Shown one piece after another: positions 10,043-55,925 of a stretch of DNA of 64,000 nt. Below the pieces are notes generated by a model. The model was not told where the DNA came from and made no database searches. It worked only from the letters and a program-made list of their open reading frames with translations. The stretch's first letter is position 1, and each line of letters begins with the position of its first letter. The translations under genes and the position numbers were made by a program. Source of the DNA: Methyloversatilis discipulorum (GTDB lineage Bacteria > Pseudomonadota > Gammaproteobacteria > Burkholderiales > Rhodocyclaceae); contig NZ_ARVV01000001.1 of the NCBI RefSeq assembly GCF_000385375.1, forward strand, positions 1,426,001-1,490,000. The letters run 5' to 3'.

Positions 10043-11470
10043 TCATTGCGTGCCCGACGCGCGTTCGCCCACCATTGCGCTGGGCGTCACCCACAGGTCG
10101 AACTGCTCGCCGCTCACGTCGCCCGAGGCAAGCGCCGCCTCGCGCAAGGTCAGGCCTTCGCGGTGGGCGCGGGCGGCGATCTTCGCTGCGCGGTCGTAGC
10201 CGATGTGCGGCACCAGCGCGGTCACCAGCATCAACGACTGCTGCATCAGCGTGGCGATGCGATCGCGCCGCGCTTCGATGCCGGCGACGCAGTGGGCGTC
10301 GAAGCTGCGCATGCCGTCGGCGAGCAGGCGGATGCTCTGCAGCACGGCGCCGGCGATCAGCGGCTTGTAGACGTTCAGTTCAAAGTTGCCGGAGGCGCCG
10401 CCCATCGTGACGGCGACGTCGTTGCCGATGACCTGGGCGCACAGCATCGTGAGCGCTTCGCACTGGGTCGGGTTCACCTTGCCCGGCATGATGGAACTGC
10501 CGGGCTCGTTCTCCGGCAGCGCCAGTTCGCCCAGACCACTGCGTGGGCCGGAGGCGAGCCAGCGGATGTCGTTGGCGATCTTGCTCAGCGCGACGGCCAG
10601 CGTTTTCAGCGCACCATGCAGCGCAACCAACGGCTCGTGCCCGGCCAGCGCGGCGAACGGGTTGTCGGCGCAGACGAAGGGCAGGCCGGTGCCGTCGGCC
10701 AGCTTGTTCGCCACCCGGGTGCCGAATTCCGGATGGGTGTTCAGGCCGGTGCCAACCGCGGTGCCGCCGATCGCCAGCGCATGTACTGCCGGCAGTGCTG
10801 CAACGATGGCCGAGCGGGCCAGCGCGAGCTGGGCGGCGTAGCCGGAGAATTCCTGGCCCAGCGTCAGCGGTGTGGCGTCCTGCAGATGGGTGCGGCCGAT
10901 CTTGACGATGTCGGCAAAGGCGACCGCCTTGTCGGCCAGCTGCGCGTGCAGCGCGTCGAGTGCCGGCATCAGCGCGCGCCGGACGGCGTAGGCGGCGGCC
11001 ACGTGCATGGCCGTCGGGAACACGTCGTTCGACGACTGGCCCATGTTCACGTCGTCGTTCGGGTGCAGCGTGCGCGCCTCGCCGCAGTCGCCGCCCATCA
11101 GCTGCGAGCCGCGGTTGGCCAGCACCTCGTTCATATTCATATTGGTCTGCGTGCCGGAGCCGGTCTGCCACAGCGACAGCGGAAACTCGTCGTCATGCTG
11201 GCCAGCGAGCACCTCGTCAGCGGCAGCGACGATAGCGGTCATGCGCTCGGCCGGCAGTTTGCCCAGCCGGCCATTGGCCAGCGCCGCCGCGCGCTTGACC
11301 GCGGCCAGCGCGTGTATCAGTTCGCGCGGCATGCGCTCGGTCGAGATCGCGAAGTGCTGCAGCGAGCGCTGCGTCTGCGCGCCCCACAGGCGGTCTGCCG
11401 GCACCTCGATCGGGCCGAAGGAATCGTGTTCGGTGCGGGTGACGTTGGGCGGCTGCGTGGCGGTATCCAT
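10043..11470 (-). CDS. fumC: Class II fumarate hydratase
   Basis: 475-aa cytoplasmic TCA-cycle enzyme that hydrates fumarate to malate. It belongs to the aspartase/fumarase superfamily and carries the signature [11 protein letters not shown], the substrate-binding stretch [16 protein letters not shown], and [17 protein letters not shown]. Class II enzymes need no iron-sulfur cluster. Length fits the family (about 460 aa) with a short N-terminal extension. ATG at 11470 chosen; further upstream the frame runs through the helicase promoter region. It is divergent from the DinG-type helicase gene. Confidence 0.96.
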
Positions 11471-11603: not shown

Positions 11604-13547
11604 GTGTCCGACATTCCCGCCACCTTTGCACCCGACGGCCCGCTGGCCCGCGCCATCCCCGGTTTTACGCCGCGCACGCAGCAGACCGAAATGGCCGAAC
11701 GCGTGGCCCAGGCCATCGCCGACCGCAGCGTGCTGGTGGTCGAGGCAGGCACCGGCACCGGCAAGACTTACGCCTATCTGGTGCCGGCGCTGCTGTCCGG
11801 CGCCAAGGTGATCGTGTCTACCGGCACCAAGACGCTGCAGGACCAGCTCTACGGCCGCGATCTGCCGACCGTGCGCGGTGCGCTCGGCGTGCCGGTCAGC
11901 ATCGCGCTGCTCAAGGGACGCGCCAACTACCTGTGCCATTACCACCTCGAACGTTCGCTGCAGGAGGGCCGTTTCGGCTCGCGTGAAGACGCCTCTCACC
12001 TGCAGGCCATTGCCCGCTGGGCCAAGGTGACCAGCACCGGCGACAAGGCGCAGTGCAGCGAGGTGCCGGAAGAGTCGGGTGCCTGGTCGCATGCGACCTC
12101 TACGCGCGACAACTGCCTCGGCCAGGACTGTCCGAACGCCAAGGAATGCTTCGTCACCGCCGCGCGCCGCGAGGCGATGGAGGCTGACGTGGTGGTGGTG
12201 AACCATCATCTGTTCTTCGCCGACCTGATGCTGCGCGACGAGGGCGTGGCCGAACTGCTGCCGGCCTGCAACGCCGTCGTGTTCGACGAAGCGCACCAGC
12301 TCGCCGAGACCGCCAGCCTGTTTTTCGGCGAATCGGTATCGACCTCGCAGATGCTCGAGCTGGCGCGCGACACGCGGGCCGAGGCGCTGGTCGGCGCCAA
12401 GGACTTCAAGCAGCTGCCGGAATCGGCCGAGCGCATGGTGAAGGCGGTGCGCGACCTGCGGCTGGTATTCCGCGAGGAGAACGTGCGGCTGTCGGCGGCA
12501 CAGATCGACGAGCGCCCGGCGTTCGCACCGGCGCTGGCCACCGTGCTGGAGGCGCTGAACGAACTGGCCGGTCTGCTGGAAACGCAGGCGGCGCGCAGCG
12601 AGGGGCTGGAGAAGTGCTGGCAGCGCGCGCTCGACCTGATCGCCCGCGTCGAGCGCTGGCAGGCGGGCGAGAAAGCGGGCGAGCAGTCGGACCGCGTGCG
12701 CTGGGCCGAGGTCTATACGCAGGCGCTGGCGCTCAACGCCACGCCGCTGTCGGTGGCCGACATCTTCCGCCGGCAGATGGAAGACAACCCGCGTGCCTGG
12801 ATCTTCACCTCGGCCACGTTGTCGGTGGGCAACGATTTCGGCCACTACTGCGGCGAACTGGGGCTGCACAACGCCGAAACCGCGCAGTGGGGCAGCCCCT
12901 TCGCCTACGAACAGCAGGCGCTGCTGTACGCCCCGGAAAACATGCCGGAGCCGTCGGCGCCGACCTATGCCGAAGCCGTGGCGCGTGCCGCCTGGCCGCT
13001 GATCAAGGCCTGCCGCGGCGGCGTATTCGTGCTGTGCACATCGCTGCGCGCGATGAAGCGCATCCACGAGCTGATCGAGGACAAGCTGTCGGCTTACGAT
13101 CCGGAGCGGCCGCTGCTGATGCAGGGCCAGGCCACGCGCAGCGAACTGCTGGACCGCCACCGCGCCGCCGGCAACGCCGTGCTGGTCGCCAGCCAGAGCT
13201 TCTGGGAAGGCGTGGATGTGCGCGGCGACGCGCTGCAGCTGGTCATCATCGACAAGCTGCCGTTTGCGCCGCCGGACGACCCGGTGCTGTCGGCGCGCAT
13301 CGAACACCTGAAGAAACAGGGGCGCAACGCCTTTTCCGAATACCAGCTGCCGCACGCGGTGATCAGCATGAAGCAGGGCGCCGGCCGCCTCATCCGCGAC
13401 GAGCGCGACCACGGCGTGCTGATGGTGTGCGACCCGCGGCTGGTCGAGAAGCACTACGGCAAGGTGATCTGGCGCAGTCTGCCGCCGATGCGCCGCACCC
13501 GCAGCGCCGACGTCGCTGTGCAGTTTCTTGAAAGTCTTGCCGGCTGA
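11604..13547 (+). CDS. DinG/YoaA-type ATP-dependent DNA helicase
   Basis: 647-aa superfamily 2, XPD-like 5'-3' helicase. Walker A is EAGTGTGKT (about residues 47-55) and Walker B/DEAH is VFDEAHQL (near 228). Between them are the cysteines expected to ligate the 4Fe-4S cluster (NYLCHY, then CLGQDC and KECF). The C-terminal half has the [13 protein letters not shown] and [12 protein letters not shown] motifs. YoaA helps DNA repair and replication together with the HolC clamp-loader subunit; DinG resolves R-loops and DNA structures. Start chosen at GTG 11604, which gives a family-like N-terminus (residues 16-24 reading PGFTPRTQQ). An upstream in-frame start at 11508 adds sequence that overlaps the fumC promoter. 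Confidence 0.9.
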
Positions 13548-13560
13548 AAGCTGGCGGGAG

Positions 13561-13820
13561 TCGAAGCCGGCGGTCCGCGGCGGCCGCGTCGCGGCCAAGG
13601 CCGCTCCCACGGGGTCGGCGCCTGAACGGCGGCTGGAGCTCGGGATCGGGGCTCTGTGGGAGGGGGCTTCGGACCCCGACGGCAGCTTGCGTCGAAGCTG
13701 GCGGTCCGCAGCGGCCGTGTCGCGGCCAAGGCCGCTCCCACGGGTCGGCGCCCGAACGGCGGCTGGAGCCCGGGAGCGGGGTCTGTGGGAGGGGTCTTCT
13801 GACCCCGACAGCGGCCTGAA
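13561..13820. repeat. Two tandem REP-like intergenic units of about 131 bp
   Basis: Two copies of an approximately 131-bp unit (13561-13691 and 13692-13820) lie between the helicase gene and the CbiM-like gene, with a short start of a third copy. Each unit holds an inverted motif reading GTGGGAGCGGCCTTGGCCGC on the minus strand (near 13587-13610 and 13718-13741) and a GTGGGAGGGG...GACCCCGAC motif on the plus strand (13656-13680 and 13785-13809). These resemble the palindromic REP/BIME repeats common in high-GC proteobacteria. No reading frame is conserved across the copies. Confidence 0.75.
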
Positions 13821-13941
13821 CCGAAGCCCGCGGCTGCTGCTTACTGCCGGTACCGCTCCGGCGATGCCGGGCGCTTGCTTCACGTCATGAACGCAGGCGT
13901 CTTGGCGTGCCACACTGCGCGGCGTGTGATCGGGAGGCGGT

Positions 13942-14580
13942 GTGTTCGCAATCGAAATCTGTCTGCTGCTGCTGGCGCTCGGCGTCAGCGCACTCATGCG
14001 GCCCTGGCGCATGTTGGCCGGGCCGCTCGGGGCGCCGTGGGCGGCTTCGCTGGTGGTGCTGTCGCTGCTGTGGGTGCTGCCGCAGATGCTGCCCAGCGGC
14101 ATCTCGATCCAGCTTTCGGGCGCCTGCCTGCTGGTGCTCATGTTCGGCTGGCCGCTGGCGGTGATCGAACTGGTGCTGGTCGCGCTGGCGGTGTGGCTGC
14201 TCGGCGATCTCGGTTTCGCCGCGGTGCTGTCGCAGCTGGTGTGGATAGGTCTGGTGCCGGCCACGCTGGCACTGGCGCTGGGCGAAGCCTTGCGCCGCGG
14301 CCTGCCGGCGCATCCCTTCATCTATGTGCTGGGTCGCGGCTTCATCGGTACCGCGATGAGCATTTTTGCGGCCGGTGCGGCCTACGAGTTCATCCACCAC
14401 CTGCTTGGCGGCGTCGCCGTCGAGCACGCACTGGTCGCGCGCTGGCTGATGGCCTGGGGCGACGCCTTCCTGACCGGCATGCTGGTGGCGGTCTTCGTCG
14501 CCTTCGTGCCCGAGTGGCTGGCCACCTGGTCGGACCAGCGCTACCTCGGGTCGCCGCCCCCGCCGCCACCTTCGTCCTGA
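13942..14580 (+). CDS. CbiM-like energy-coupling factor permease protein
   Basis: 212-aa integral membrane protein with six to seven hydrophobic segments, ending in a proline run (RYLGSPPPPPPSS). It resembles short proteobacterial proteins annotated as energy-coupling-factor ABC transporter permease, related to the cobalt/nickel S-component CbiM. The metal-binding N-terminal His of true CbiM is not seen, and no EcfT or ATPase gene is adjacent, so transport function is uncertain. GTG start at 13942 with a GGGAGG site 6 nt upstream. Confidence 0.65.
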   Translation: MFAIEICLLLLALGVSALMRPWRMLAGPLGAPWAASLVVLSLLWVLPQMLPSGISIQLSGACLLVLMFGWPLAVIELVLVALAVWLLGDLGFAAVLSQLVWIGLVPATLALALGEALRRGLPAHPFIYVLGRGFIGTAMSIFAAGAAYEFIHHLLGGVAVEHALVARWLMAWGDAFLTGMLVAVFVAFVPEWLATWSDQRYLGSPPPPPPSS

Positions 14581-41860: not shown

Positions 41861-42549
41861 ACAACCGACAGACCCGCATCCTTCTGGTCGATGACCACGC
41901 GGTCGTGCGCACCGGTTACCGCGCGCTGCTGGAGATGAACGAGTCGCTGCTGGTGGCGGCCGAGGCCGGCACCGCCGACGAGGCCTACGCCGCCTACCGC
42001 AAACACGCGCCCGACGTGGTGGTGATGGACATCATGCTGCCCGGCTCCAGCGGCATCGAAGCCACGCGGCGCATCGTCGCCTTCGACGAACAGGCGAAGG
42101 TGCTCATGTTCACGATGTGCTCGCACCCGACCGTGGTGCAGCAGGCGCTGGATGCCGGCGCGCTCGGCGTGCTGACCAAGGACAGCCCGGCCGAGCAGCT
42201 GGTCGACGCGGTGCAGTCGGTGGCGCGCGGCAAGCGCGTGCTGAGCCGGCAGGTGGCGGAAAGCGTGGCCTTCTCGCACTACCTGCCGGAATCCAAGCTG
42301 TTCGGTTACCTGACGCCGCGCGAATTCGAAATGTGCCGGCTGCTGGTGTCCGGCCATTCGATCGACGCCATCGCCGAACAGCTCAACCTGAGCCCGAAGA
42401 CGGTGGCCAACAAGCTCAGCACGGCGCGGCGCAAGCTCGACGTCAGTTCCGACATCGAGCTGGTGAAGCTCGCGTCAGAAGTCGGTCTGGTGCCCTGGGT
42501 GACCGAGCGCCGGCTGGGCCTGACCGACGCGCCGCCGGCGTCGCGCTAG
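41857..42549 (+). CDS. mxaB: NarL/LuxR-family response regulator, MxaB type
   Basis: 230-aa two-component regulator. The receiver is complete: [10 protein letters not shown] acidic pair, phospho-acceptor Asp in [13 protein letters not shown], and Lys in [12 protein letters not shown]. The C-terminal LuxR HTH reads [15 protein letters not shown] and [23 protein letters not shown]. Overlaps the kinase by ATGA. Probable activator of the divergent mxaF operon, as for MxaB in other methylotrophs; binding site unproven. Its last 4 nt overlap the convergent COG0523 GTPase gene. Confidence 0.85.
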
Positions 42550-43769
42550 GTTTGCTGCGCCGGCTCGTCGTCGGCGTCGGCAAGCGCCCACGGGTCGAAG
42601 GGATCGGGCAGCGTGCGCCAGGTGGACGAGCCGGCGGCCATTTCGGCGTCGGTCAGCAGACATGCGTCGAGCTGCTGGCGTATCCACGCCTCGTCCATGT
42701 CCATGCCGATGAATACCAGTTCCTGGCGACGGTCGCCGAAGGGCGCCAGCCAGCGCGCCTCGATCTGCTTCAGGTAGTCGCGGTCGGTCGGCCAGTCGGC
42801 GCGGTCCACCGCCGCCCACCACAGGCCGGCCGGGCGGTTGCGACAGATGCCGCCAGCCTGTGCCCATTCGCCGGCGAAATCCATGCGGCTGGCCAGCCAG
42901 AAGAAGCCCTTGCTGCGGATGACGCCCGGCCATTCGTCGTGGATCAGGTTCCAGAAGCGCTGCGGATGGAAGGGCCGGCGCTCGCTCCATGAAAAGCTGC
43001 GGATGCCGTAGGTGTCGGATTCCGGCACGTGGGTGCCGCGCATTTCCTGCAGCCAGCCCGGCGCTTCGGCGGCGGCGTCGAAGTCGAAGCGGCCGGTGTC
43101 GAGGATGCGGTCCAGCGGTACGCGTCCTTCGGTCGACTCGACCACGTCGGCGCGCGGGTTCAGCGCGCGCAGTATCGCGTGCAGGCGGTCGCGTTCGTCG
43201 GCACTGACCAGGTCGCACTTGTTCAGCACGATCACGTCGGCGAACTCGATCTGGTCGACCAGCAGGTCGACCACGGTGCGCTGGTCTTCGTCGCCGAGCG
43301 ATTCGCCGCGTTCGGCGATCATGTCCTGGCTCGAGTAGTCGCGCAGGAAGTTGTATGCATCGACCACAGTCACCATGGTGTCCAGCCGCGACACCGATGA
43401 CAGGCTGCTGCCGTCCTCGTCTTCGAAGGTGAAGGTTTCGGCCACCGGCAGCGGTTCGGAAATGCCGGTCGATTCGATCAGCAGATAATCGAAGCGGCCT
43501 TCGCGCGCCAGCCGCGATACCTCGATCAGCAGGTCTTCGCGCAAGGTGCAGCAGATGCATCCGTTCGACATTTCGACCATGCGGGCGTCGGTGCGCGACA
43601 GCTGCGCGCCGTTGGCGACGAGCTGGGCGTCGATGTTCACTTCCGACATGTCGTTCACGATGACCGCCACGCGGCGGCCTTCGCTGTTGGACAGCACGTG
43701 GTTGAGCAGGCTGGTCTTGCCGGCGCCGAGAAAGCCCGACAGCACGGTGACCGGAAGTCGTTCGTTCAT
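42546..43769 (-). CDS. COG0523 (CobW/ZigA-type) metal-chaperone GTPase
   Basis: 407-aa cytoplasmic GTPase. Walker A is [11 protein letters not shown] (about residues 11-21), the zinc-binding [10 protein letters not shown] follows (CxCC), the Mg/ESTG motif is [11 protein letters not shown], and the guanine motif is NKCD. A C-terminal CobW domain with W-rich [13 protein letters not shown] follows. ZigA/ZagA/YeiR relatives hand zinc to client enzymes and are induced by Zur during zinc limitation. Next to DUF1826, a PEP-CTERM protein, a ZnuD-like receptor and a Fur-type regulator, which supports a zinc role. ATG 43769; 3' end overlaps mxaB convergently by 4 nt. Confidence 0.9.
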
Positions 43770-43788
43770 GATGGTGTGGTTTCCGTTG

Positions 43789-44430
43789 TCAGAACACCGC
43801 ATCGAAGGCGGCGACGATGCGCAGCCGGTGCGGGGCGTCGAGTTGGGGTGAGCGGTGGATGACGCCGCGGCCGGCGTTGTCCGGCCACAGTTCGCCCTTG
43901 AGCAGCACGATGTCGCCGGCGGTGGCGCGATCGATGCCGGCGGCGTCGGTCATCACGGCGTCGCTGCCGAGGTGGCTGCGGTCGGCGCAACGGTCGTCCA
44001 GCCATTCGGTGGCCGGACCGATCCAGGTACAGAGCAGGCGCAGGGCGACGCGGTCGACGTGCCAGCGCGGGCACATGGCGCGGTCCAGCACCTCGATGCG
44101 CACGCCGACCCGCGTACAGCCGGTGAGGTCGGCCAGCAGTCCGGACAGCAGTTGCACGTCGGCATCGACGGTGTCGCGCCCGGGCAGTTCGGGCAGGGTG
44201 CCGATGGGCAGCGGGCTGCCGGCGTCGATCACCGCGCGCCGCCCGCTGCCAAGTGCGCCGCTGGCATGAGCCGCGTGCAGACAGTCGGCCAGACCGGGCG
44301 GCAGAGGGCGCTGCAGACGCACCAGATTGACGGCCGGATCGAAGACCTGCGCGAGGTCGGCCAACGTGACGGCGTCGACGGCACGGGAACAGGATGTCGC
44401 GGGAGCAGGGGGCTGAAATCGGATGTTCAT
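43789..44430 (-). CDS. DUF1826 family protein
   Basis: 213-aa soluble protein. It has a His/Cys-containing centre ([30 protein letters not shown]) and [12 protein letters not shown] near the C-terminus, the hallmark of DUF1826, an unexplained family repeatedly found beside COG0523 GTPases and zinc genes. The HxD-like WHVD and distant His suggest a cupin-like or oxygenase-like metal site, but no reaction is known. 19 bp upstream of the GTPase; likely one operon. Confidence 0.8.
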
Positions 44431-44467
44431 GGTGCGTGCAGGCGGGGTGTGCCCGCCTGCCTCGTCC

Positions 44468-45319
44468 TCAGCGCGCGCGTCGCGCGGCGACCGTGCCCAG
44501 CATCAGCAGACCGCCGAGCAGCATGGCCCAGCTCGCCGGTTCAGGCACCGGCGGCGCGACCGCGAAGTCGATGTAGAAGGTGCCACCGTCGCGCACGGCG
44601 GTATTGCTGCCCAGGTTCACCAGCGAGAACTGCGCGGTGTAGGTGCCGACCGCGGCGGCCGCGTCGGTGTAGAAGGTCGGCACGAAGTCGAAGCCATTGC
44701 CGTCGCCAAGCAGATAGAGGTTGCCGCTGTCGAACAGGTCCATGTCGCCATTGGCGGCGACCTTCAGACCCGGCGTGATGTACTCCAGCTTCAGCGCGAC
44801 CTGCACGCCGTCGAGCTGTGCGTTCCAGCGGTTGGCGCTGCTTGCGTACAGCACCGCCTCGGCGCTGCCGGCGGCGCCGTCGGCCAGCGACTGGATGGAC
44901 GACGCGCCGAGGTAGCTGTAATCGTGATGAGCGACGCTGTCATCGAGCACGCCGCTGACCAGCTTGCCGGCGAATGCTCCGCTGCCTGCGCGCAGCGCGA
45001 GCGTGCCGGGCAGCGGTGAAATGCGTGCCGACAGTTCCGGAATGCGGTTGTTGGCGTTGCTGCCGTTGATGACCGGCGCTGCGGCGCTGCCGGTATAGCT
45101 GTAGGCGCCGATGCCGTGGAAGTGGTTGCCGTGCTCCATCAGATAGGTGAGGCGGCCGTAGTTCGGATTGGCCAGGCCAGCAAAGGTGCCGCTGGCAATC
45201 GTCGCCAGGCTGTCGATCCCGATGTAGAAGCCGATGCCTTCATCGGCGCGCAGCGGCTCGCTGGCGTGTGCGAAGCCGGACATGAGGCCGGCAATGACGA
45301 GCAGGGCGCGGACTTTCAA
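44468..45319 (-). CDS. all3515-like, Zur-linked PEP-CTERM protein
   Basis: 283-aa exported protein. Signal peptide ends FAHAS (about residue 19). The body contains FYIGIDSLATIASGTFAGLANPNYGRLTYLMEHGNHFHGIGAYSY (around 30-75, His-rich) followed by NNRIPELSARISPLPG, resembling the all3515 family that is repressed by Zur in cyanobacteria. It ends in the exosortase signal VPEPASWAMLLGGLLMLG and RR tail. TTG start at 45319, with GGAG 6 nt upstream. Likely anchored at the cell surface and may bind zinc through the His cluster (inference). First gene of the operon reading into DUF1826 and the GTPase. Confidence 0.8.
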   Translation of the reverse strand: MKVRALLVIAGLMSGFAHASEPLRADEGIGFYIGIDSLATIASGTFAGLANPNYGRLTYLMEHGNHFHGIGAYSYTGSAAAPVINGSNANNRIPELSARISPLPGTLALRAGSGAFAGKLVSGVLDDSVAHHDYSYLGASSIQSLADGAAGSAEAVLYASSANRWNAQLDGVQVALKLEYITPGLKVAANGDMDLFDSGNLYLLGDGNGFDFVPTFYTDAAAAVGTYTAQFSLVNLGSNTAVRDGGTFYIDFAVAPPVPEPASWAMLLGGLLMLGTVAARRAR

Positions 45320-45424
45320 GATGCTCTCCTTTGTTGATAATCGAATATCAAAAGATACGGGGCGTAGTCTTTTTTGTAAAGGAGATTGCATTATCATTAG
45401 AGGCTGATCATCCGGAGACCTCTC
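45320..45424. promoter_or_regulatory. Divergent PEP-CTERM promoter with 18-bp dyad
   Basis: AT-rich region between two divergent PEP-CTERM genes. TTGATAATCGAATATCAA at 45334-45351 is palindromic except at two positions, the size and symmetry expected for a Fur/Zur-family site, 15 bp from the all3515-like start. A second element, GATTGCATTATCATTAG at 45384-45400, resembles GATTGCTATTGCTAATAG at 48431-48448 upstream of the paralogous PEP-CTERM gene and the receptor. Confidence 0.55.
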
Positions 45425-46279
45425 ATGCGCGTGCCCATCCGCTTCATGCACCTTGCTGCAGCACTGCTGTCCTTCCACGTTGCCGCGGCACATGCCATCC
45501 ACTTCGACGTCACCATCGGGCTCGACCAGGGACCGGTGGCCGGCAGCAGGATTACGGTCGGTGCCTATGGCGACCTGCCGTTCGAGCAGTTGCCGATCGA
45601 TGTCCACACCGGATACATGGTGTTCCCGGGCGACTTCGGCGACTTCGAGGGCGGGCCGAAAAGCACCGACGATCCGGGTTTCCAGGCTTTCCCGGGCAGC
45701 CTGTCCGGCGCCAGCGGTGCCCGAGATTTCATCGGTTTCAAGGCGGTCGGCACGCTGTTGCAGTGGGATGCCGCCAGCGGCACATGGTCGGCCGCCGATG
45801 ACGGCGTCGGCATTCGCCTGTACGGCGCGGTGCCACCGGCGGTGGCCAACGCCTACATCCAATCGCTGATCAATCCGCGCCTGGCACCGCCCGGTGCAGC
45901 GGCGAATTTCGAGTTCTATTCGCAGGGAACGCTGTTTACCGGCGCCGGCATCGAAGGCCCGGTCGCGGCGACGATAGACGACGCGAACGCCAACGGCGGC
46001 TTCCATGCGCACCTGGACTGGTTCATCGAAGGCGCGGCACCGTCCAGCGCCTATATGGTGACGCTGCAACTGACCGACGCGACGTCGATAGGTGGCCGCG
46101 GACGCTACGTCGATTCCGACCCTTTCCACGTGGTGTTCAACTACGGCCTCAGCGCCGAACAGTACGAAACTGCCTTCATGTCACGCGTCAGCCTGCCGGT
46201 GCCCGAGCCGTCGAGCTGGGTATTGATGGTGGTCGGTCTCGTGCTGACGACTTCGCTCGCGCGTCGGGTCAGAAGCTGA
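45425..46279 (+). CDS. PEP-CTERM protein, paralogue A of the zinc locus
   Basis: 284-aa exported protein: signal peptide about 1-24 (AAAHA), beta-rich body with GDFGDFEGGPKSTDDPGFQAF and GFHAHLDWFIEGAAPSSAYMVTLQL, then VPEPSSWVLMVVGLV and RR tail. The first two motifs recur in the protein at 48509 (FRDFSGGLFKTDDPGF and IHSHLDFSIGGADRALAGAYLITLQL), so the two are paralogues. The His-rich HAHLD/HSHLD segment is a plausible metal site. Convergent with the ZnuD-like receptor gene, overlapping it by 11 nt. Confidence 0.82.
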   Translation: MRVPIRFMHLAAALLSFHVAAAHAIHFDVTIGLDQGPVAGSRITVGAYGDLPFEQLPIDVHTGYMVFPGDFGDFEGGPKSTDDPGFQAFPGSLSGASGARDFIGFKAVGTLLQWDAASGTWSAADDGVGIRLYGAVPPAVANAYIQSLINPRLAPPGAAANFEFYSQGTLFTGAGIEGPVAATIDDANANGGFHAHLDWFIEGAAPSSAYMVTLQLTDATSIGGRGRYVDSDPFHVVFNYGLSAEQYETAFMSRVSLPVPEPSSWVLMVVGLVLTTSLARRVRS

Positions 46280-48410
46280 CGCTGAGGCCGGCTTCGACGC
46301 TGCGCCCCGGTTCCGGCGAGAAGCTGCGCAGGAAGGACACCGGGTTGCGCGCTTCGGCATTGAGCAGATTGCGCGCCTTCAGGTACAGCGTCAGCGTGCG
46401 GCCGCCGTCGAGCGGACGCACGTGGTTCAGGTTGGCGCTGACCAGGGTGTAGCCGTCGCTGGCGGTTTCGTTGGCGCCCGGCCTGTCCTGCGCCGCCTGT
46501 CGCGTCACGCGCACCCGCCCGGACCACGCCTCCTTGCTTATCGCCAGCTGCGTGCCGAAGCGCAGCGGCGGCATGCGCGGCACGTCTTCGTCGAGCGCCG
46601 GCAGCCGGGCGCGCACGGCGTCGGCGAAGACCGACCACTCGACGTCGCCGAAGCGGCTGGCCGCCCACTTCAATGCCAGTTCCGCTTCGAATCCCCTCAG
46701 CTTGGCGCGGCTCTGCGCGTATTGAACCACCTGCAGACACTCTTCCAGGCGGACGCAGGCGAAACGGAACTGCTCTTCGGCAGTGTCGTAGAAGAAGGCT
46801 TCGCTGAGCTGGAAGATGTAGTTGCTGACGTCGTTGGCGTACACGCTGACCGCAGCGCGCAATCGCGCATCCTCGTACAGCGCCGACAGGTCGATCGAGC
46901 GCGCGCCCTCCGTGTTCAGCCCGGGGTCGCCCAGATCGTAGGTGCGGGTCGCCAGGTGGGCGCCCAGCGAATAGAGCTCGTGGATCTCGGGCGCGCGTTC
47001 GGCATGCGCGGCGCTGACCGTGAAACTCAGTGCATCGGCCGCCTGCCAGCGCAGCGACGCGGAAGTGCTCTGTGCGTTGATGTGGCGCCGCGGAAAGCTC
47101 ACCGCGAAGCCGCCGGCAAGTTCGCGATCGCCGGCTTCCATGCGCGTCATTTCGCCGCGCCAGCCCAGTTCGAAGCGCAGGCTGGAGATGTCGACATGCT
47201 GCGTTGCGTAGAGGGCGGAACTGCGCATCGAGGTCTGCGGAATGAAAGCTTCGACGCCGAGCGCCGAGAAGTCGCGCCGTGTGTGGTGCACACCGACCGT
47301 GCCACCGAGGTGTTCGCCGAGGGTGTGCTCCAGTTCGATCCGCTGTTCGATCGCCTTGTTGCGGAAGGTGGTGGCGACGGCGCCCTGATCGACTTCGTCG
47401 TGCCGGTAATCGACGTGCGCCCCGGTATAGCGCAGCGACTGCAGCCAGCCTTCGCCCAGCCATTCGGCGCGGGTGTCGACGCGGCGGTTGTCCATCACGA
47501 TGCGCACCCGGTCGTCGCCGCCATGCGAGTGGCCGGGGGCGGGCGGAATGCCGTAGTCGTTCGACGCGTTGTTCACGGCGGCGCCCAGCAGCGCGTTGCC
47601 GATGAACAGGCTGCCGCCCAGCGTGCCGGCGGCGGCGCGTGCATCGCTGTTGTACAGGCGCCCGCAGCTGTTGCGCGTGTTGATCAGGCCGAACTGCTGC
47701 TGCACGGCGTCGTCGTCGACGGCGCAGCCGGCGATGCGGGCGTCACCGCGATCGCGGCTGCTGGCCGAGGCGTGCAGCGCGAACGGGCCGCGGCCGCCGT
47801 CGAGCCGCAGTGAACTGATCCGTTCCGACGCGTTGGTGTTGTAGCCGAGGTCGACCGCGCCGCTGAGTGCCTTCTGCGGCAGTCGCGTCGGAATGCGTTC
47901 GTCGGCCACGTCGACCACGCCGCCGATGGCGCCGCCGCCGTAGCGGATGGTGGCCGGGCCGCGCACGATGCGCACCGAATCCGCCACCGCCGTATCGGCA
48001 GTCGATGCGTGATCGGGGCTGAAGGTGGTGGCGTCGTGCGTGCCGCCACCGTTGCTCAGTACTTTCACCCGCGCACCGCTGAGGCCGCGGATGACCGGCA
48101 GGCCGACGCCGGTGCCGAAGGAGGCGTTGTGCACGCCCGCTTCGTCGCCCACCGTTTCGCCCAGCGTCGCGCCCTTGCGGTCGCGCAGCGCTTCGCCGCG
48201 CAGTCTGGATGCGCCCGCTTCGTTCGCCCCGTCCGGCGTTCGGCTGTCCTCGACGCGGATGGCAGGCAGTTCGATGGCGTCGGGGCTGTCGGCGACGTCC
48301 TGCGCGATCGCGCTGCGGCAGCAGGCGGTGAGCAGGAGGAGAGACAGGCTTCCGGCGATACCAGGGCGCCGGATCGCCCCGGGGTGGGGACGGACGAATC
48401 GAGAGGACAT
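46269..48410 (-). CDS. ZnuD-like TonB-dependent outer-membrane receptor
   Basis: 713-aa outer-membrane receptor. Signal peptide about 1-36. Plug segments GLPVIRGLSGARVKVLSNGGGTHDATTFSPDHA and VRIVRGPATIRYGGGAIGG are typical of the ZnuD branch, and a His-rich loop with APGHSHGGDD matches the zinc-capturing loop of ZnuD. C-terminus ends VEAGLSVSF. It is thought to import zinc (or heme in some members) using TonB. Flanked on both sides by paralogous PEP-CTERM genes and near a zur-type regulator. ATG 48410. Confidence 0.85.
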   Translation of the reverse strand: MSSRFVRPHPGAIRRPGIAGSLSLLLLTACCRSAIAQDVADSPDAIELPAIRVEDSRTPDGANEAGASRLRGEALRDRKGATLGETVGDEAGVHNASFGTGVGLPVIRGLSGARVKVLSNGGGTHDATTFSPDHASTADTAVADSVRIVRGPATIRYGGGAIGGVVDVADERIPTRLPQKALSGAVDLGYNTNASERISSLRLDGGRGPFALHASASSRDRGDARIAGCAVDDDAVQQQFGLINTRNSCGRLYNSDARAAAGTLGGSLFIGNALLGAAVNNASNDYGIPPAPGHSHGGDDRVRIVMDNRRVDTRAEWLGEGWLQSLRYTGAHVDYRHDEVDQGAVATTFRNKAIEQRIELEHTLGEHLGGTVGVHHTRRDFSALGVEAFIPQTSMRSSALYATQHVDISSLRFELGWRGEMTRMEAGDRELAGGFAVSFPRRHINAQSTSASLRWQAADALSFTVSAAHAERAPEIHELYSLGAHLATRTYDLGDPGLNTEGARSIDLSALYEDARLRAAVSVYANDVSNYIFQLSEAFFYDTAEEQFRFACVRLEECLQVVQYAQSRAKLRGFEAELALKWAASRFGDVEWSVFADAVRARLPALDEDVPRMPPLRFGTQLAISKEAWSGRVRVTRQAAQDRPGANETASDGYTLVSANLNHVRPLDGGRTLTLYLKARNLLNAEARNPVSFLRSFSPEPGRSVEAGLSVSF

Positions 48411-48508
48411 GCCGCAGCGGAAGGTGCGATGATTGCTATTGCTAATAGTATCGCGTTATCGTTAACGGCGATGTTCACTTCCTTTCCGTCCTCACCAAGG
48501 AGCAAGCG
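48411..48508. promoter_or_regulatory. Divergent receptor/PEP-CTERM promoter
   Basis: 98-bp AT-rich region. It holds the inverted repeat CTATT-GCT-AATAG (48436-48448), GTTATCGTTAAC (48455-48466, arms GTTA/TAAC), and an AAGGAG ribosome site for the rightward gene. The repeats are candidates for Fur/Zur-family binding; a consensus search is needed. Confidence 0.45.
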
Positions 48509-49228
48509 ATGAAATATTCCGGACCCGGTTCTTTACTGCGTGCGCTCGGCATGACCGCATTTCTTTCAACACAGCTCTTCGTGGCGGCGCAGGCGGCCGA
48601 TCACGCGGGCGATATCGAGGTCGGCATGGCGGCGGGCTCGCTGGTGGTCGATCCCGAGGGGCTGGCGCAGATTGCCGCCAATGGTTACCGCCTGTTCGAA
48701 GCGGACTTCCGTGATTTCAGTGGTGGCCTGTTCAAGACCGACGACCCGGGCTTCGTCGCGGAAGAGGGCGCGCTCGATGTCGGGCTGGTCGTCGGCTACC
48801 GCGGCCTTGGCGTGCTGCAGTCGTGGAACGGTTCGATGTGGACCAGCAGCGGTCCTTCGGTCTTCGTGTCGATCGAGGACGTGCTGGGCACGATCACTTC
48901 ATTCGGCTACGGCGCGGTCACCGATCCTGCCGGCGCGATCGCCCAAGTGTCCGGTGCCGGCGACATCCACTCGCACCTGGATTTCTCGATCGGCGGCGCG
49001 GACCGCGCGCTGGCCGGTGCCTACCTGATCACGCTGCAGCTCGAAGCGAACGGCGTGCTGGCGTCGTCGCCGTTCTACATCGCGTTCAACAACGGTCTGG
49101 AAGAAGCGGCATTCGAAGGTGCGGTCGGCGCGCTGATGGCGCCGGTGCCGGAACCGGCAACGTGGGCGATGCTGATCGCCGGCGTCGGTCTGGTGGGCGC
49201 GCTCGGCCGTCGCCGTCAGTGCGTGTGA
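48509..49228 (+). CDS. PEP-CTERM protein, paralogue B of the zinc locus
   Basis: 239-aa exported protein with signal peptide (about 1-29, VAAQAAD), a beta-rich body including FRDFSGGLFKTDDPGFVAEEG and IHSHLDFSIGGADRA, and C-terminal VPEPATWAMLIAGVGLVGALGRRR. Paralogue of the 45425-46279 product. ATG 48509 has AAGGAG upstream. Its 3' end overlaps the convergent zur-type gene by 13 nt, so the locus has little free space, as expected for a compact module. Confidence 0.82.
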   Translation: MKYSGPGSLLRALGMTAFLSTQLFVAAQAADHAGDIEVGMAAGSLVVDPEGLAQIAANGYRLFEADFRDFSGGLFKTDDPGFVAEEGALDVGLVVGYRGLGVLQSWNGSMWTSSGPSVFVSIEDVLGTITSFGYGAVTDPAGAIAQVSGAGDIHSHLDFSIGGADRALAGAYLITLQLEANGVLASSPFYIAFNNGLEEAAFEGAVGALMAPVPEPATWAMLIAGVGLVGALGRRRQCV

Positions 49229-49653
49229 TCGTGGTCGTGCGGATGCGTGTGCCCGGCTGAGGGCGCTCCGTCCGCGTCTCCTTTTCCGCTGCACGCGCTG
49301 CAGCGGCCGAACAGCGTCACGTCGTGCGCCTCGACCGAAAAACCGGCGGGCGCCAGTGCGTTCCAGTCGGTCTGGCATTCGGCGATGTCGAACACGCGGT
49401 CGCACTGCAGGCACTTGAAGTGATGGTGGTGACCGAGGTGAGCCACTTCGTAGCGCGGTGCCTCGCCCGGCAGACTGACTTCGCGGATGCGGCCTTCTTC
49501 GAGCAGCAGCTTGATGTTGCGATACACGGTCGCGAGCCCGAGCGCCGGCGCCTCGCTGCGTGCCAGCGCGTGCAGTTCGGCCGGCGACAGCGGCCGGCCG
49601 GCCGCTTCGATGGCGCCGAGTATCGCGGTGCGCTGACGCGTATTGCGCTCCAT
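49216..49653 (-). CDS. zur: Fur-family regulator, probable Zur
   Basis: 145-aa metal-dependent repressor. Winged helix from RQRTAILGAIEAAGRPLSPAELHALA to LGLATVYRNIKLLLEEG, then the metal-sensing part with HLGHHHHFKCLQCDRVFDI and a second CSAC pair forming the structural zinc site. The C-terminus is very His/Asp-rich (HTHPHDHDHTH), unusual and suggestive of zinc binding. Zur, rather than Fur or PerR, is favoured by the adjoining zinc-type genes. It starts 8 nt after the HAD gene stop and so is probably the last gene of the perM-hda-HAD run. Confidence 0.83.
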   Translation of the reverse strand: MERNTRQRTAILGAIEAAGRPLSPAELHALARSEAPALGLATVYRNIKLLLEEGRIREVSLPGEAPRYEVAHLGHHHHFKCLQCDRVFDIAECQTDWNALAPAGFSVEAHDVTLFGRCSACSGKGDADGAPSAGHTHPHDHDHTH

Positions 49654-49661
49654 GAGTGCGC

Positions 49662-50351
49662 TCAGACCTCGTCCGGCACGGCGGTGCCGGTGTGCAGATG
49701 CATGATCTGCCAGCCGTGTGCACGCGCGTGCGCGTCCAGCGTCGGGTCCGGATCGACCGCCACCGGATTGGTCACCCGGGTGAGCAGCGGCAGATCGTTC
49801 AGCGAGTCGCTGTAGAAGGTGGTGCGGCGGAAGCTGCCGAAATACAGCCCCAGTTCTTCCAGCCAGCGTTCGACGCGTTCGATCTTTCCTTCGCGGAAGG
49901 CCGGCGTGCCGCGCGGCTTGCCGGTGAATTCGCCGTCCTGCTGCGCGGGGATGGTGGCGACCAGATGCGGCACGTCAAGCTCGCGCGCGATCGGACCCGT
50001 GATGAAGCTGTTGGTGGCGGTGACGATGGCGCACAGGGCACCGCTTTCCAGGTGACCGTTCACCAGGCCGCGCGCACCGTCGGTGAGGCGCGGGCGGATC
50101 TGCTGCACCATGAACTCGGCATGCCAGGCGTCCAGCTCGGCACGCTTGTGGCGCGACAGCGGCGCCAGCTGGAAGTCGAGGAATTCGTGGATGTCCAGCG
50201 TGCCGGCCTTGTACTGCGCGTAGAAGGTCGCGTTGCGCGCCTCGTACAGCTCGCGGTCGAGCACGCCCTTGGAGATCAGGAATTGCGCCCACTCGAAGTC
50301 CGAGTCACCGGCGAGCAGGGTGTTGTCGAGGTCGAAAAGTACCAGTTCCAT
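49662..50351 (-). CDS. HAD-IB family phosphatase (SerB-like)
   Basis: 229-aa HAD hydrolase. Motif I is VLFDLDNTLLAGDSD, motif II is AIVTATNS, Lys motif in GKPRGTPAFREGK and motif III is FYSDSLNDLPLL. This is the subfamily IB pattern of phosphoserine phosphatase-like enzymes, which commonly follow hda in betaproteobacteria. Substrate not determined. ATG 50351 lies 13 bp after hda. Confidence 0.9.
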   Translation of the reverse strand: MELVLFDLDNTLLAGDSDFEWAQFLISKGVLDRELYEARNATFYAQYKAGTLDIHEFLDFQLAPLSRHKRAELDAWHAEFMVQQIRPRLTDGARGLVNGHLESGALCAIVTATNSFITGPIARELDVPHLVATIPAQQDGEFTGKPRGTPAFREGKIERVERWLEELGLYFGSFRRTTFYSDSLNDLPLLTRVTNPVAVDPDPTLDAHARAHGWQIMHLHTGTAVPDEV

Positions 50352-54677: not shown

Positions 54678-54722
54678 CGCGTTACAATCCGTCGTCGACT
54701 CGGCGCAGGATACTACATTGTC

Positions 54723-55925
54723 ATGAATTCCAAGGCGGAGCTGTCCGGGCGCACCATCGTGCTGGCCGTCACCGGTGGCGTGGCGGCCTACAAGTCGGCG
54801 GAACTGGCGCGCTTGCTGATCAAGCAGGGCGCGCGCGTACGCGTCGTGATGACCGAGGCGGCGAGTCACTTCATCGGCGCGGCTACCTTTCAGGCCATCA
54901 CCGGTGAGCCGGTGTGGTCTGACCTGTGGGATGCGCGCATGCCGAACGGCATGGCGCACATCGATCTCACGCGCGACGCGCAGTTGCTGCTGATCGCGCC
55001 CGCCACCGCCGATTGCATCGCGAAGCTCGTGCAAGGTCGTGCCGACGATCTGCTGAGCACGCTCTGTCTGGCGCGTGACGCAGCGTGCGCGCTGATGGTG
55101 GCGCCGGCGATGAACCGGCAGATGTGGGAACACCCGGCGACAGTCCGCAATATGAATACGCTGCGCGGCGATGGCGCCATTGTCGTCGGGCCGGCGGCGG
55201 GCGAGCAGGCCTGCGGCGAGGTCGGCCTCGGCCGCATGGTGGAGCCGGCCGAACTGCTGGAGGCAGTGCTTGCGCATTTCACGCCGAAGACGATGGCTGG
55301 CCGGCGCGTGCTGATCACGGCCGGACCGACCGCCGAAGCCATCGATCCGGTGCGCGTCGTCACCAATCTGAGCTCGGGGCGCATGGGCTACGCGCTGGCG
55401 TGCGCGGCGGCAAGGGCAGGCGCCGAAGTGACGCTGATAAGCGGACCGACCGGGCTGGCAAAGCCCTTCGGTGTCGAGCGCGTCGATGTGAGCAGCGCGC
55501 AGTCGATGCACGATGCGGTGCTGTCACGCTACGCCGCCTGCGATGTATTCATTTCGGTCGCTGCGGTCGCAGACTACCGGCCAGCGGCGCCCAGCGACCG
55601 CAAGATAAAGAAGAGCACCGACACGCTGTCGATCGACATGGTGCGCAATCCGGATATCCTCGCCGACATTGCGGCGCGCGCCGATGCGCCGTTCTGCGTC
55701 GGCTTCGCGGCCGAGAGCCATGACCTCGACACCTATGCACAAGGCAAGCGGGTGGCCAAGAAGCTGCCGCTGGTCGTCGGCAATCTGGTGGCCGACGGCC
55801 TGGGTGGTGAGGACAATGCGGTCGTGCTGTACGACGCTGACGGACGCCATCCGCTTGCGCGAGCGTCCAAGCCGGACATCGCGCGCGCCATCCTCGAACA
55901 CATTTCCCGATTGCTGAAAGACTGA
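54723..55925 (+). CDS. coaBC: Bifunctional CoaBC (PPC decarboxylase / PPC synthetase)
   Basis: 400-aa coenzyme A biosynthesis enzyme. The CoaC half (about 1-185) has [17 protein letters not shown], an HxxG-type start, and [13 protein letters not shown] (the PXMNxxMW motif); the CoaB half begins near [23 protein letters not shown]. It ligates cysteine to 4'-phosphopantothenate and decarboxylates the product. ATG 54723. dut follows 2 nt after its stop, so they are co-transcribed. Confidence 0.97.

Follow-up and report, generated by a model that had tools for sequence, protein, structure and literature searches.

How might a bacterium short of zinc bring the metal to a TonB-dependent receptor in its outer membrane, and could surface proteins encoded beside that receptor take part? 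This question is raised by seven genes of Methyloversatilis discipulorum, which lie at positions 42546-49653 of a 64,000-nucleotide stretch (the window; contig NZ_ARVV01000001.1 of assembly GCF_000385375.1, forward-strand positions 1,426,001 to 1,490,000). The genes code for ZigA (a COG0523 GTPase), a DUF1826 protein, the PEP-CTERM exoprotein ZepA (all3515 family), two further PEP-CTERM proteins here called PEP-A and PEP-B, a ZnuD-like receptor and a Fur-family regulator. Comparison of this locus with its counterparts in other genomes indicates that it is very probably a zinc-starvation module that includes a receptor-partner pair.

A preliminary description, made from the sequence of the window, had presented these genes as one dense module with overlapping convergent ends. 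All seven frames are intact, the coordinates and family assignments are confirmed, and the convergent ends do overlap, by 11 bases between PEP-A and the receptor and by 13 bases between PEP-B and the regulator. The motifs that had been pointed out (CxCC in the COG0523 protein, the GHSHGG loop of the receptor and the His-rich tail of the regulator) are all present. The genome is complete, with a single contig of 4.25 Mb. The module gene set recurs in nine of the 13 Methyloversatilis genomes searched, one of which (G007) lacks zepA, and parts of it recur in other genera. PEP-A is 97% identical to its counterpart in an M. discipulorum metagenome-assembled genome (MAG; locus L044).

PEP-A and PEP-B share an unnamed domain

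PEP-A and PEP-B align with 28% identity over 233 columns (BLASTP E 1e-23), which bears out their proposed paralogy. They have in common an immunoglobulin (Ig)-like domain of about 220 residues that carries an HxH motif. At E <= 1e-3, searches return at least 27 homologues of PEP-B, at least 43 of PEP-A and at least 91 proteins with a joint profile. The His pair of HxH is invariant in 32 of 32 domain sequences from both paralogous groups, most of whose loci were fetched with the patterns GxFH[AS]HLDW or GGPxxTDDPG. T58, P61, G62, W98 and Y187 are likewise invariant in this set, and D5 is nearly so (trimmed PEP-A numbering). This invariance also holds in 85 sequences that were gathered from the window and by other kinds of database search. 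Two PEP-B proteins carry additional His-Asp repeats: that of L068 ends in DHDHDH, and that of L074 has HDHDHDH shortly after the signal.

The domain is predicted to be an Ig-like beta sandwich in AlphaFold models, whose mean predicted local distance difference test (pLDDT) values are 92.6 for PEP-A and 90.0 for PEP-B. In the PEP-A model, HxH lies on a strand at residues 193-196. Comparison of the domain models with structures in the PDB gave no clear relative, and a PDB sequence search with the domain profile gave a single match at E 0.11. No relevant Pfam or NCBIfam family was matched by any domain member, the matches being the PEP-CTERM tail or scattered weak ones. A profile comparison with the ZepA family gave E 0.0018 with a probability of 15%. 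A search of plasmids for the HxH domain returned no match. Planctomycetes presumably have similar proteins. A search of the open-access literature, as text without figures, revealed no paper on the PEP-A/PEP-B pair or on its tie to one receptor branch, and nothing of relevance on zinc in Methyloversatilis.

The domain accompanies one branch of ZnuD-like receptors

The receptor carries a plug and a beta-barrel (PF07715 and PF00593) as well as the GHSHGG loop, and its closest solved structure is that of ZnuD (4rdr, 206 bits). The high-affinity zinc ligands of ZnuD are Asp99, His100, Glu340 and His499 (PMC4557270, in its available portion). Counting along the alignment of the receptor with 4rdr places their equivalents at D133, H134, E339 and H485, and all four are invariant in the 69 receptors compared. 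The preliminary description needs correction in one point, since the receptor belongs to a separate ZnuD-like clade. Because it scores only 320 bits against the cut-off of 950 bits of the ZnuD model NF038289, we call it ZnuD-like rather than ZnuD. A second ZnuD-like receptor is encoded elsewhere in the same genome (G000:C1:263611-265437, 239 bits).

A scan of a species-genome collection with PEP-A patterns yielded 38 loci. These come from Methyloversatilis, Methylobacillus, Nitrosospira, Nitrosovibrio, Nitrosomonas, Aquabacterium, Rubrivivax, Methylotuvimicrobium, Methylomicrobium, Microbulbifer, Cellvibrionales and less exactly labelled records. Together with the window and loci L082, L089, L090 and L092, they make up the 43 loci examined. 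In 41 of these, at most 1 kb separates a domain gene from a ZnuD-like receptor (>100 bits). The two exceptions are L080, which has one domain gene beside zepA, and L092, which is a further copy in genome G041. In comparison, such a receptor is absent from all 20 control windows, each of which takes in 20 kb around another PEP-CTERM match hand-picked from one of six genomes (best score 33.6 bits). At least two domain genes are present in 38 of the 43 loci, and three of the other five (L069, L071 and L081) are contigs shorter than 7 kb.

The 43 loci were fetched by way of the domain and several are close kin, and for this reason genomes were also drawn evenly. Per genome, up to eight (class) or seven (phylum) domain candidates and, in the class sample, up to three receptor candidates were scored. 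The domain is present in at least five of 369 class genomes and at least three of 398 phylum genomes. The genome of the window is in both samples, and the positive genomes number seven in all, three of which (G060, G309 and G533) are the same records as loci L051, L068 and L070. Each of the seven has two or three copies of the domain and an adjoining receptor. The co-occurrence of PEP-CTERM paralogues with ZnuD-like receptors that the preliminary description proposed to look for is seen in other genomes, among the linked loci as well as the evenly drawn genomes. ZnuD-like receptors at E <= 1e-30 occur in at least 48 of the 369 class genomes, and thus far more genomes have the receptor than the domain.

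A single branch of a tree of 69 receptors separates the 43 that have the domain close by from the 26 others. The branch has a Shimodaira-Hasegawa-like approximate likelihood-ratio test (SH-aLRT) support of 99, and the distribution of the domain requires one change, a number as low as this being reached in none of 500 shuffles. The tree was made by a quick search with no bootstrap, many of its rows are close kin, and identical sequences were entered once. The receptor of L063 (a piece of 345 amino acids) was dropped, as was L080, which has no receptor. The 26 others are the best-scoring among the class-sample matches listed, and 30 loci were fetched for the tree. They were judged to be domain-free from about 1.5 kb of flanking sequence and a negative domain search in the same genomes, except for L157, which comes from G309, a genome whose domain adjoins another receptor. 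C552 and C558 are both present in 43 of 43 members of the domain-linked clade versus two of the 26 other ZnuD-like receptors, and besides this Cys pair the clade shows a few further private residues.

A natural fusion and varied modes of surface display

A single reading frame in Burkholderiales bacterium bin.9 (L077:9776-16180), open over 2134 codons, joins the domain, an autotransporter and the receptor. The HxH domain (10058-10723) is followed by PATR passenger repeats and then by an autotransporter barrel at residues 1068-1318; the receptor part supplies a TonB plug (1484-1583) and, after it, a TonB barrel (1765-2103). Locus L091 is the same contig. The polypeptide contains two outer-membrane barrels, and a threefold repeat can be seen by eye in its linker.

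In genomes G130 and G260, from another gammaproteobacterial genus, the domain is the passenger of an autotransporter of 933-934 residues, and a single base is shared between the autotransporter gene and the end of the receptor gene. Besides the fusion frame, loci L186 and L188 bear the domain on an autotransporter, an arrangement that is seen in two lineages. Other domain proteins have a PEP-CTERM tail, a VPxPA-like tail, a dockerin (L074), Kelch repeats (L068), a His-Asp tail or no anchor, and 47 of 86 were called PEP-like by a rough pattern that errs both ways. The preliminary description had made exosortase anchoring part of its proposal that surface proteins capture zinc and pass it to the receptor. 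Because the anchor differs among lineages, exosortase anchoring is not essential, and we take the shared theme to be a surface position beside the receptor.

Large putative lipoproteins are encoded near the receptor and domain genes in four loci (L053:5286-7571, L061:2609-4774, L066:5967-7571 and L070:4719-6167). In L066 and L070 the protein gives a match to a right-handed beta-helix, and therefore such lipoproteins may be a further surface part of the system.

ZigA, DUF1826 and ZepA

Three further proteins of the module belong to families with zinc-related precedents. ZigA passes its curated model (NF038288; 686 bits, cut-off 600), and the CICC motif is readable in its sequence. The longest ZigA frame runs into the DUF1826 gene, and position 43766 is the likely start. 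A figure legend in PMC2770081, a source available in part, places DUF1826 beside Zur-regulated COG0523 genes. The COG0523 gene has diverged in four genomes of the genus (L045:6993-8201 and its counterparts in L046, L047 and L089). Their proteins score 392-400 bits to the ZigA of the window, and that of L045 reaches 388 bits with the ZigA model, below its cut-off of 600. By eye, the CxCC stretch is missing from those of L045 and L047.

ZepA likewise passes its model (NF040463; 273 bits, cut-off 75), and the PF07589 PEP-CTERM tail is present on ZepA, PEP-A and PEP-B alike. H63, H66 and H68 of ZepA are invariant in 13 aligned sequences, including that of the window, where HGNHFH fits the zinc motif H-X2-9-H-F/Y-H published in the available portion of PMC10957091. 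According to the same portion, ZepA (all3515) of Anabaena is a Zur-controlled exoprotein that mediates zinc uptake and was detected in the exoproteome. In several phyla, genes for COG0523 proteins, TonB-dependent transporters, other PEP-CTERM proteins and Fur proteins lie around zepA, and a 16-bp motif is reported upstream of proteobacterial zepA genes. That paper proposes zinc transfer from ZepA to an outer-membrane receptor, and it calls the route by which metal is delivered from this secreted protein unknown.

The regulator and operator-like sites

The regulator matches PF01475 with 76 bits and has the C-terminal tail GHTHPHDHDHTH. Its best relatives in the PDB are 3mwm (58.5 bits), 7vo0 (57.6), 3eyy (55.8) and 2o03 (53.5). 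The last is FurB, labelled as a zinc uptake regulator; the first two are presumably Zur of Streptomyces, and 3eyy we take to be Nur. On the basis of its gene company and these relatives, we call the protein probably Zur. The genome of the window has three Fur-family places. Among the 13 genomes of the genus, this regulator is found in exactly the nine with the module and in G005; a search of G008, G010 and G011 did not find it.

A conserved near-palindrome with the core TGATAA-N4-TTATCA occurs between the receptor gene and pepB (nine members of the genus aligned) and between zepA and pepA (eight aligned). The preliminary description had suggested searching for a common Zur box, and a shared operator-like site is found in both divergent promoters across the genus. 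Allowing up to one mismatch, the core occurs at nine places in the 13 genomes and the reversed pattern at none. Six of these places precede zepA, in six of the nine module genomes, and one is in G005. The remaining two, G000:2320420 inside a frame and G011:77553 between frames, are unrelated. In G005, the regulator gene adjoins that for DUF1826, and a perfect core site lies between the two, at the start of DUF1826. No zepA and no full-length domain protein were found in this genome, and the receptor and ZigA were not seen in the 10 kb fetched around the regulator. This arrangement provides independent support for a link between the operator-like site and the regulator. The Anabaena Zur box, which we take to be TGATAATNATTATCA, is close to this core.

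A longer pattern with up to two mismatches gives 22 matches, 21 of which are in the module, and in the genome of the window it matches just the two module sites. This pattern is circular with respect to the module, but not with respect to its near-absence elsewhere. The exception (G010:C29:56874, two mismatches) is in a genome that lacks the module. A site with three mismatches (54709, within 54700-54726 of the window) is located where a coaBC-like frame starts and is taken to be unrelated; several relatives have like-looking sites. The G010 site resembles it, and we infer that the two are the same.

The generic box GTTAT-N3-ATAAC gave no convincing match in Methyloversatilis. Seven Nitrosomonas-type loci have ten such sites at up to one mismatch in 135 kb, where 3.95 are expected from first-order Markov resampling. 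By coordinates compared by eye, nine of the ten fall between zinc-related genes or a short way upstream of them, and one lies inside a receptor frame. In these loci, the classical-looking site sits in the intergenic regions between zigA and the receptor gene and between zepA and pepB. The same site is also found upstream of zepA in L094.

Zinc-related genes near the module in other lineages

Genes for ZrgA (PF10986) were found in all four neighbourhoods in which a neighbour picked by eye was scanned, at L074:12554 and 13466-14044, L065:5394-6023, L068:1360-1905 and L076:3071-3538. A search of the genome of the window for ZrgA, run with no positive control, gave no match. Frames near the ZrgA genes of L074 have a perfect GTTAT-N3-ATAAC site between them. 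Zur-like regulators are present in L066 (93 bits) and L074 (89 bits), both under the cut-off of 167. The Nitrosospira-type and Methylotuvimicrobium loci also have a gene for a large protein inside the module (L057:5034-7454, L059:13870-16422 and L068:5010-7580). The large protein of L059 has a spermidine-synthase-like domain (PF01564), and those of L057 and L068 are alike by eye.

Coordinates and flanking gene

The positions of the genes, domains and sites are listed in Table 1. Loci of the genus keep the order phosphatase-regulator-module, where the first of these is the gene for a HAD-family phosphatase whose score of 296 bits exceeds the cut-off of 280 of its model.

Table 1. Genes, domains, residues and operator-like sites of the module, in window coordinates
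Feature	Position	Strand	Basis or remark
ZigA, COG0523 zinc metallochaperone GTPase, CICC motif	42546..43766	-	NF038288; cobW and CobW_C domains
DUF1826 protein	43789..44430	-	PF08856, 169 bits
ZepA (all3515 family), PEP-CTERM exoprotein	44468..45319	-	NF040463
Operator-like near-palindrome TGATAATCGAATATCA upstream of zepA	45335..45350	no strand	1 mismatch to TGATAANNNNTTATCA; kept across the genus
Second operator-like site, adjoining pepA	45382..45399	+	2 mismatches to GATAAYRCRTTATYRTTA; G000:C1:1471382-1471399; conserved
PEP-A: signal peptide, Ig-like HxH domain, PEP-CTERM tail	45425..46279	+	
HxH domain of PEP-A	45494..46180		H194 and H196 at 46004-46012
ZnuD-like TonB-dependent receptor	46269..48410	-	plug and beta-barrel; similarity to 4rdr
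Zinc-ligand equivalents of the receptor			D133 and H134, 48009-48014; E339, 47394-47396; H485, 46956-46958
Operator-like site GATAACGCGATACTATTA between receptor gene and pepB	48443..48460	-	2 mismatches; G000:C1:1474443-1474460; region conserved in nine aligned rows
PEP-B, PEP-A paralogue with PEP-CTERM tail	48509..49228	+	
HxH domain of PEP-B	48599..49129		H154 and H156 at 48968-48976
Fur-family regulator, probably Zur, His-rich tail	49216..49653	-	PF01475
HAD-family phosphatase, upstream of the regulator on the same strand	49662..50351	-	NF052360 (histidinol-phosphatase model)

Proposed mechanism and alternative explanations

In the model that we infer, a Zur-type repressor of the Fur family would silence its own module as long as zinc suffices. 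When zinc is short, the repressor would leave the TGATAA-N4-TTATCA-like operator in the promoters between zepA and pepA and between the receptor gene and pepB. This release would allow the receptor, ZepA, PEP-A, PEP-B and the cytosolic proteins ZigA and DUF1826 to be made. PEP-A and PEP-B, positioned beside the receptor at the outer surface, would contact it as dedicated partners of this receptor branch. Their HxH motifs and neighbouring residues would bind Zn(II), and the two proteins would load it into the buried Asp-His-Glu-His site of the receptor for TonB-driven import. The two copies of the domain might serve two steps, capture and docking. We consider it likely that PEP-A and PEP-B bind zinc, and we lean towards the view that they gather the metal at the cell surface on behalf of their own receptor. 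For a direct hand-over between the partners, the chances seem evenly balanced.

Several observations weigh against this model. The linkage and the fusion show partnership, not metal transfer, and the fusion is known from one MAG contig only. In G309, a second receptor that lies 270 kb from the domain genes is closer to the receptor of the window (450 bits) than is the one beside the domain (396 bits). The constancy of HxH is partly built in, because the fetching patterns include FH[AS]HLDW, and an N-terminal His is lost in several PEP-A proteins, which leaves only HxH invariant. No ZnuA (PF01297) was found in the genome of the window by a search that was positive in 11 of 14 control genomes. 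The regulator reaches 26.5 bits with the Zur equivalog NF008646, below its cut-off of 167, PerR models rank higher among those of NCBIfam, and 3eyy falls only a little short of the first two PDB relatives in score. Three module genomes (G003, G007 and G009) have no core site at up to one mismatch. The longer pattern was drawn from module loci, misses the site of G005 and, at up to three mismatches, gives 67 matches in the 13 genomes versus 21 for its reverse. From the window alone, three matches at up to three mismatches versus 2.37 expected are not significant, and the operator claim was therefore moved to the comparison between species.

PEP-A and PEP-B might handle no metal themselves and be structural or docking partners of the receptor, as a lid, a scaffold or a co-receptor in the manner of TbpB for TbpA, that capture a foreign zinc source such as a zincophore or a zinc protein. 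We regard this as unlikely, since the presence of HxH in 32 of 32 members (partly a product of how they were fetched) and the His-Asp repeats on the PEP-B proteins of L068 and L074 fit metal binding better. The metal might instead be Ni, Co, Cu or Mn, with a regulator that is Nur-, PerR- or Fur-like. The ranking of PerR models above Zur and the third place of 3eyy, which we take to be Nur (55.8 versus 58.5 bits), would agree with this, and HxH also suits Cu and Ni. However, ZigA and ZepA exceed curated cut-offs, all four zinc ligands of ZnuD are kept, ZrgA and Zur-like neighbours occur in other lineages, and the two PDB entries that score highest with the regulator (3mwm and 7vo0) are presumably Streptomyces Zur, so that another metal seems improbable.

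A locus for zinc starvation could also be one in which PEP-A and PEP-B are freely shed like ZepA and the linkage to the receptor reflects co-regulation. The detection of ZepA in the Anabaena exoproteome (PMC10957091, in its available portion) and the lack of an anchor on some domain proteins speak for such shedding. We consider it quite improbable: many loci with the trio of receptor, PEP-A and PEP-B genes have no zepA in the fetched stretch (up to 10 kb on each side), 41 of 43 loci have the receptor no more than 1 kb away from the domain, the receptor clade tracks the domain, and the domain is found fused to the receptor or borne on autotransporters. Lastly, unrelated genes might have become neighbours in Methyloversatilis by chance or drift. 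PEP-CTERM genes are indeed numerous here, where 40 of 95 candidates were scored and all 40 matched, nearly all through the tail alone. The linkage compared with 0 of 20 control windows, the evenly drawn samples, the receptor clade and the recurrence in other beta- and gammaproteobacterial genera with varied gene orders nevertheless make this reading very unlikely.

Relation to known systems and implications

Secreted or surface-held proteins that serve a dedicated TonB-dependent receptor are known from HasA-HasR (a hemophore system), TbpB-TbpA and azurin-OprC. The last pair is also named in the available portion of PMC10957091. These systems handle haem, iron or copper, whereas the metal of the Methyloversatilis system would be zinc and two paralogous Ig-like proteins are involved. 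As in hemophore-type systems, a secreted partner is found to be genetically tied to one dedicated receptor.

The closest precedent is the ZepA/all3515 system, with which the locus shares a ZepA member, an operator-like site that may be of the Zur type and nearby genes for a COG0523 protein, a TonB-dependent receptor, other PEP-CTERM proteins and a Fur protein. The proposal that a surface protein passes zinc to the receptor is not new for ZepA, because PMC10957091 makes it for that protein; what is added to the preliminary description's version is a physical link, through the fusion of domain, autotransporter and receptor. In its available portion, that paper assigns the other PEP-CTERM proteins to no named domain family and singles out no receptor branch, whereas we define a pair of HxH-domain paralogues together with a receptor clade. 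Neisseria ZnuD has the same plug and barrel, four zinc ligands and His loop (PMC4557270, likewise in part). It differs from the receptor of the window, which misses the cut-off of the ZnuD model and belongs to a separate clade with a Cys pair and HxH partner genes. The Vibrio ZrgA system (PMC9817125, also in part) touches the present one in one Nitrosospira, two Nitrosomonas and one Methylotuvimicrobium locus, where at most about 4.5 kb separates ZrgA genes from the trio, and is not part of the window.

The principle of a secreted protein serving a TonB-dependent receptor is thus known, and the domain family, the receptor clade and the fusion appear, within the literature searched, to be an undescribed zinc variant of it. 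The locus ties a likely function to a domain that has no name in Pfam or NCBIfam, and in a methylotroph genus it amounts to a regulon that is small and self-contained. For delivery of the ZepA type, it provides a concrete and testable pair, namely the receptor branch and the unnamed domain, with the natural fusion as physical evidence. Comparison of these genes suggests that bacteria may feed a zinc receptor by means of dedicated scavenger proteins. It is an even question whether beta- and gammaproteobacteria possess a protein-fed route of outer-membrane zinc uptake that would do without a small-molecule zincophore, and in which a distinct ZnuD-like clade would work with paralogous HxH carriers held on lineage-specific anchors.

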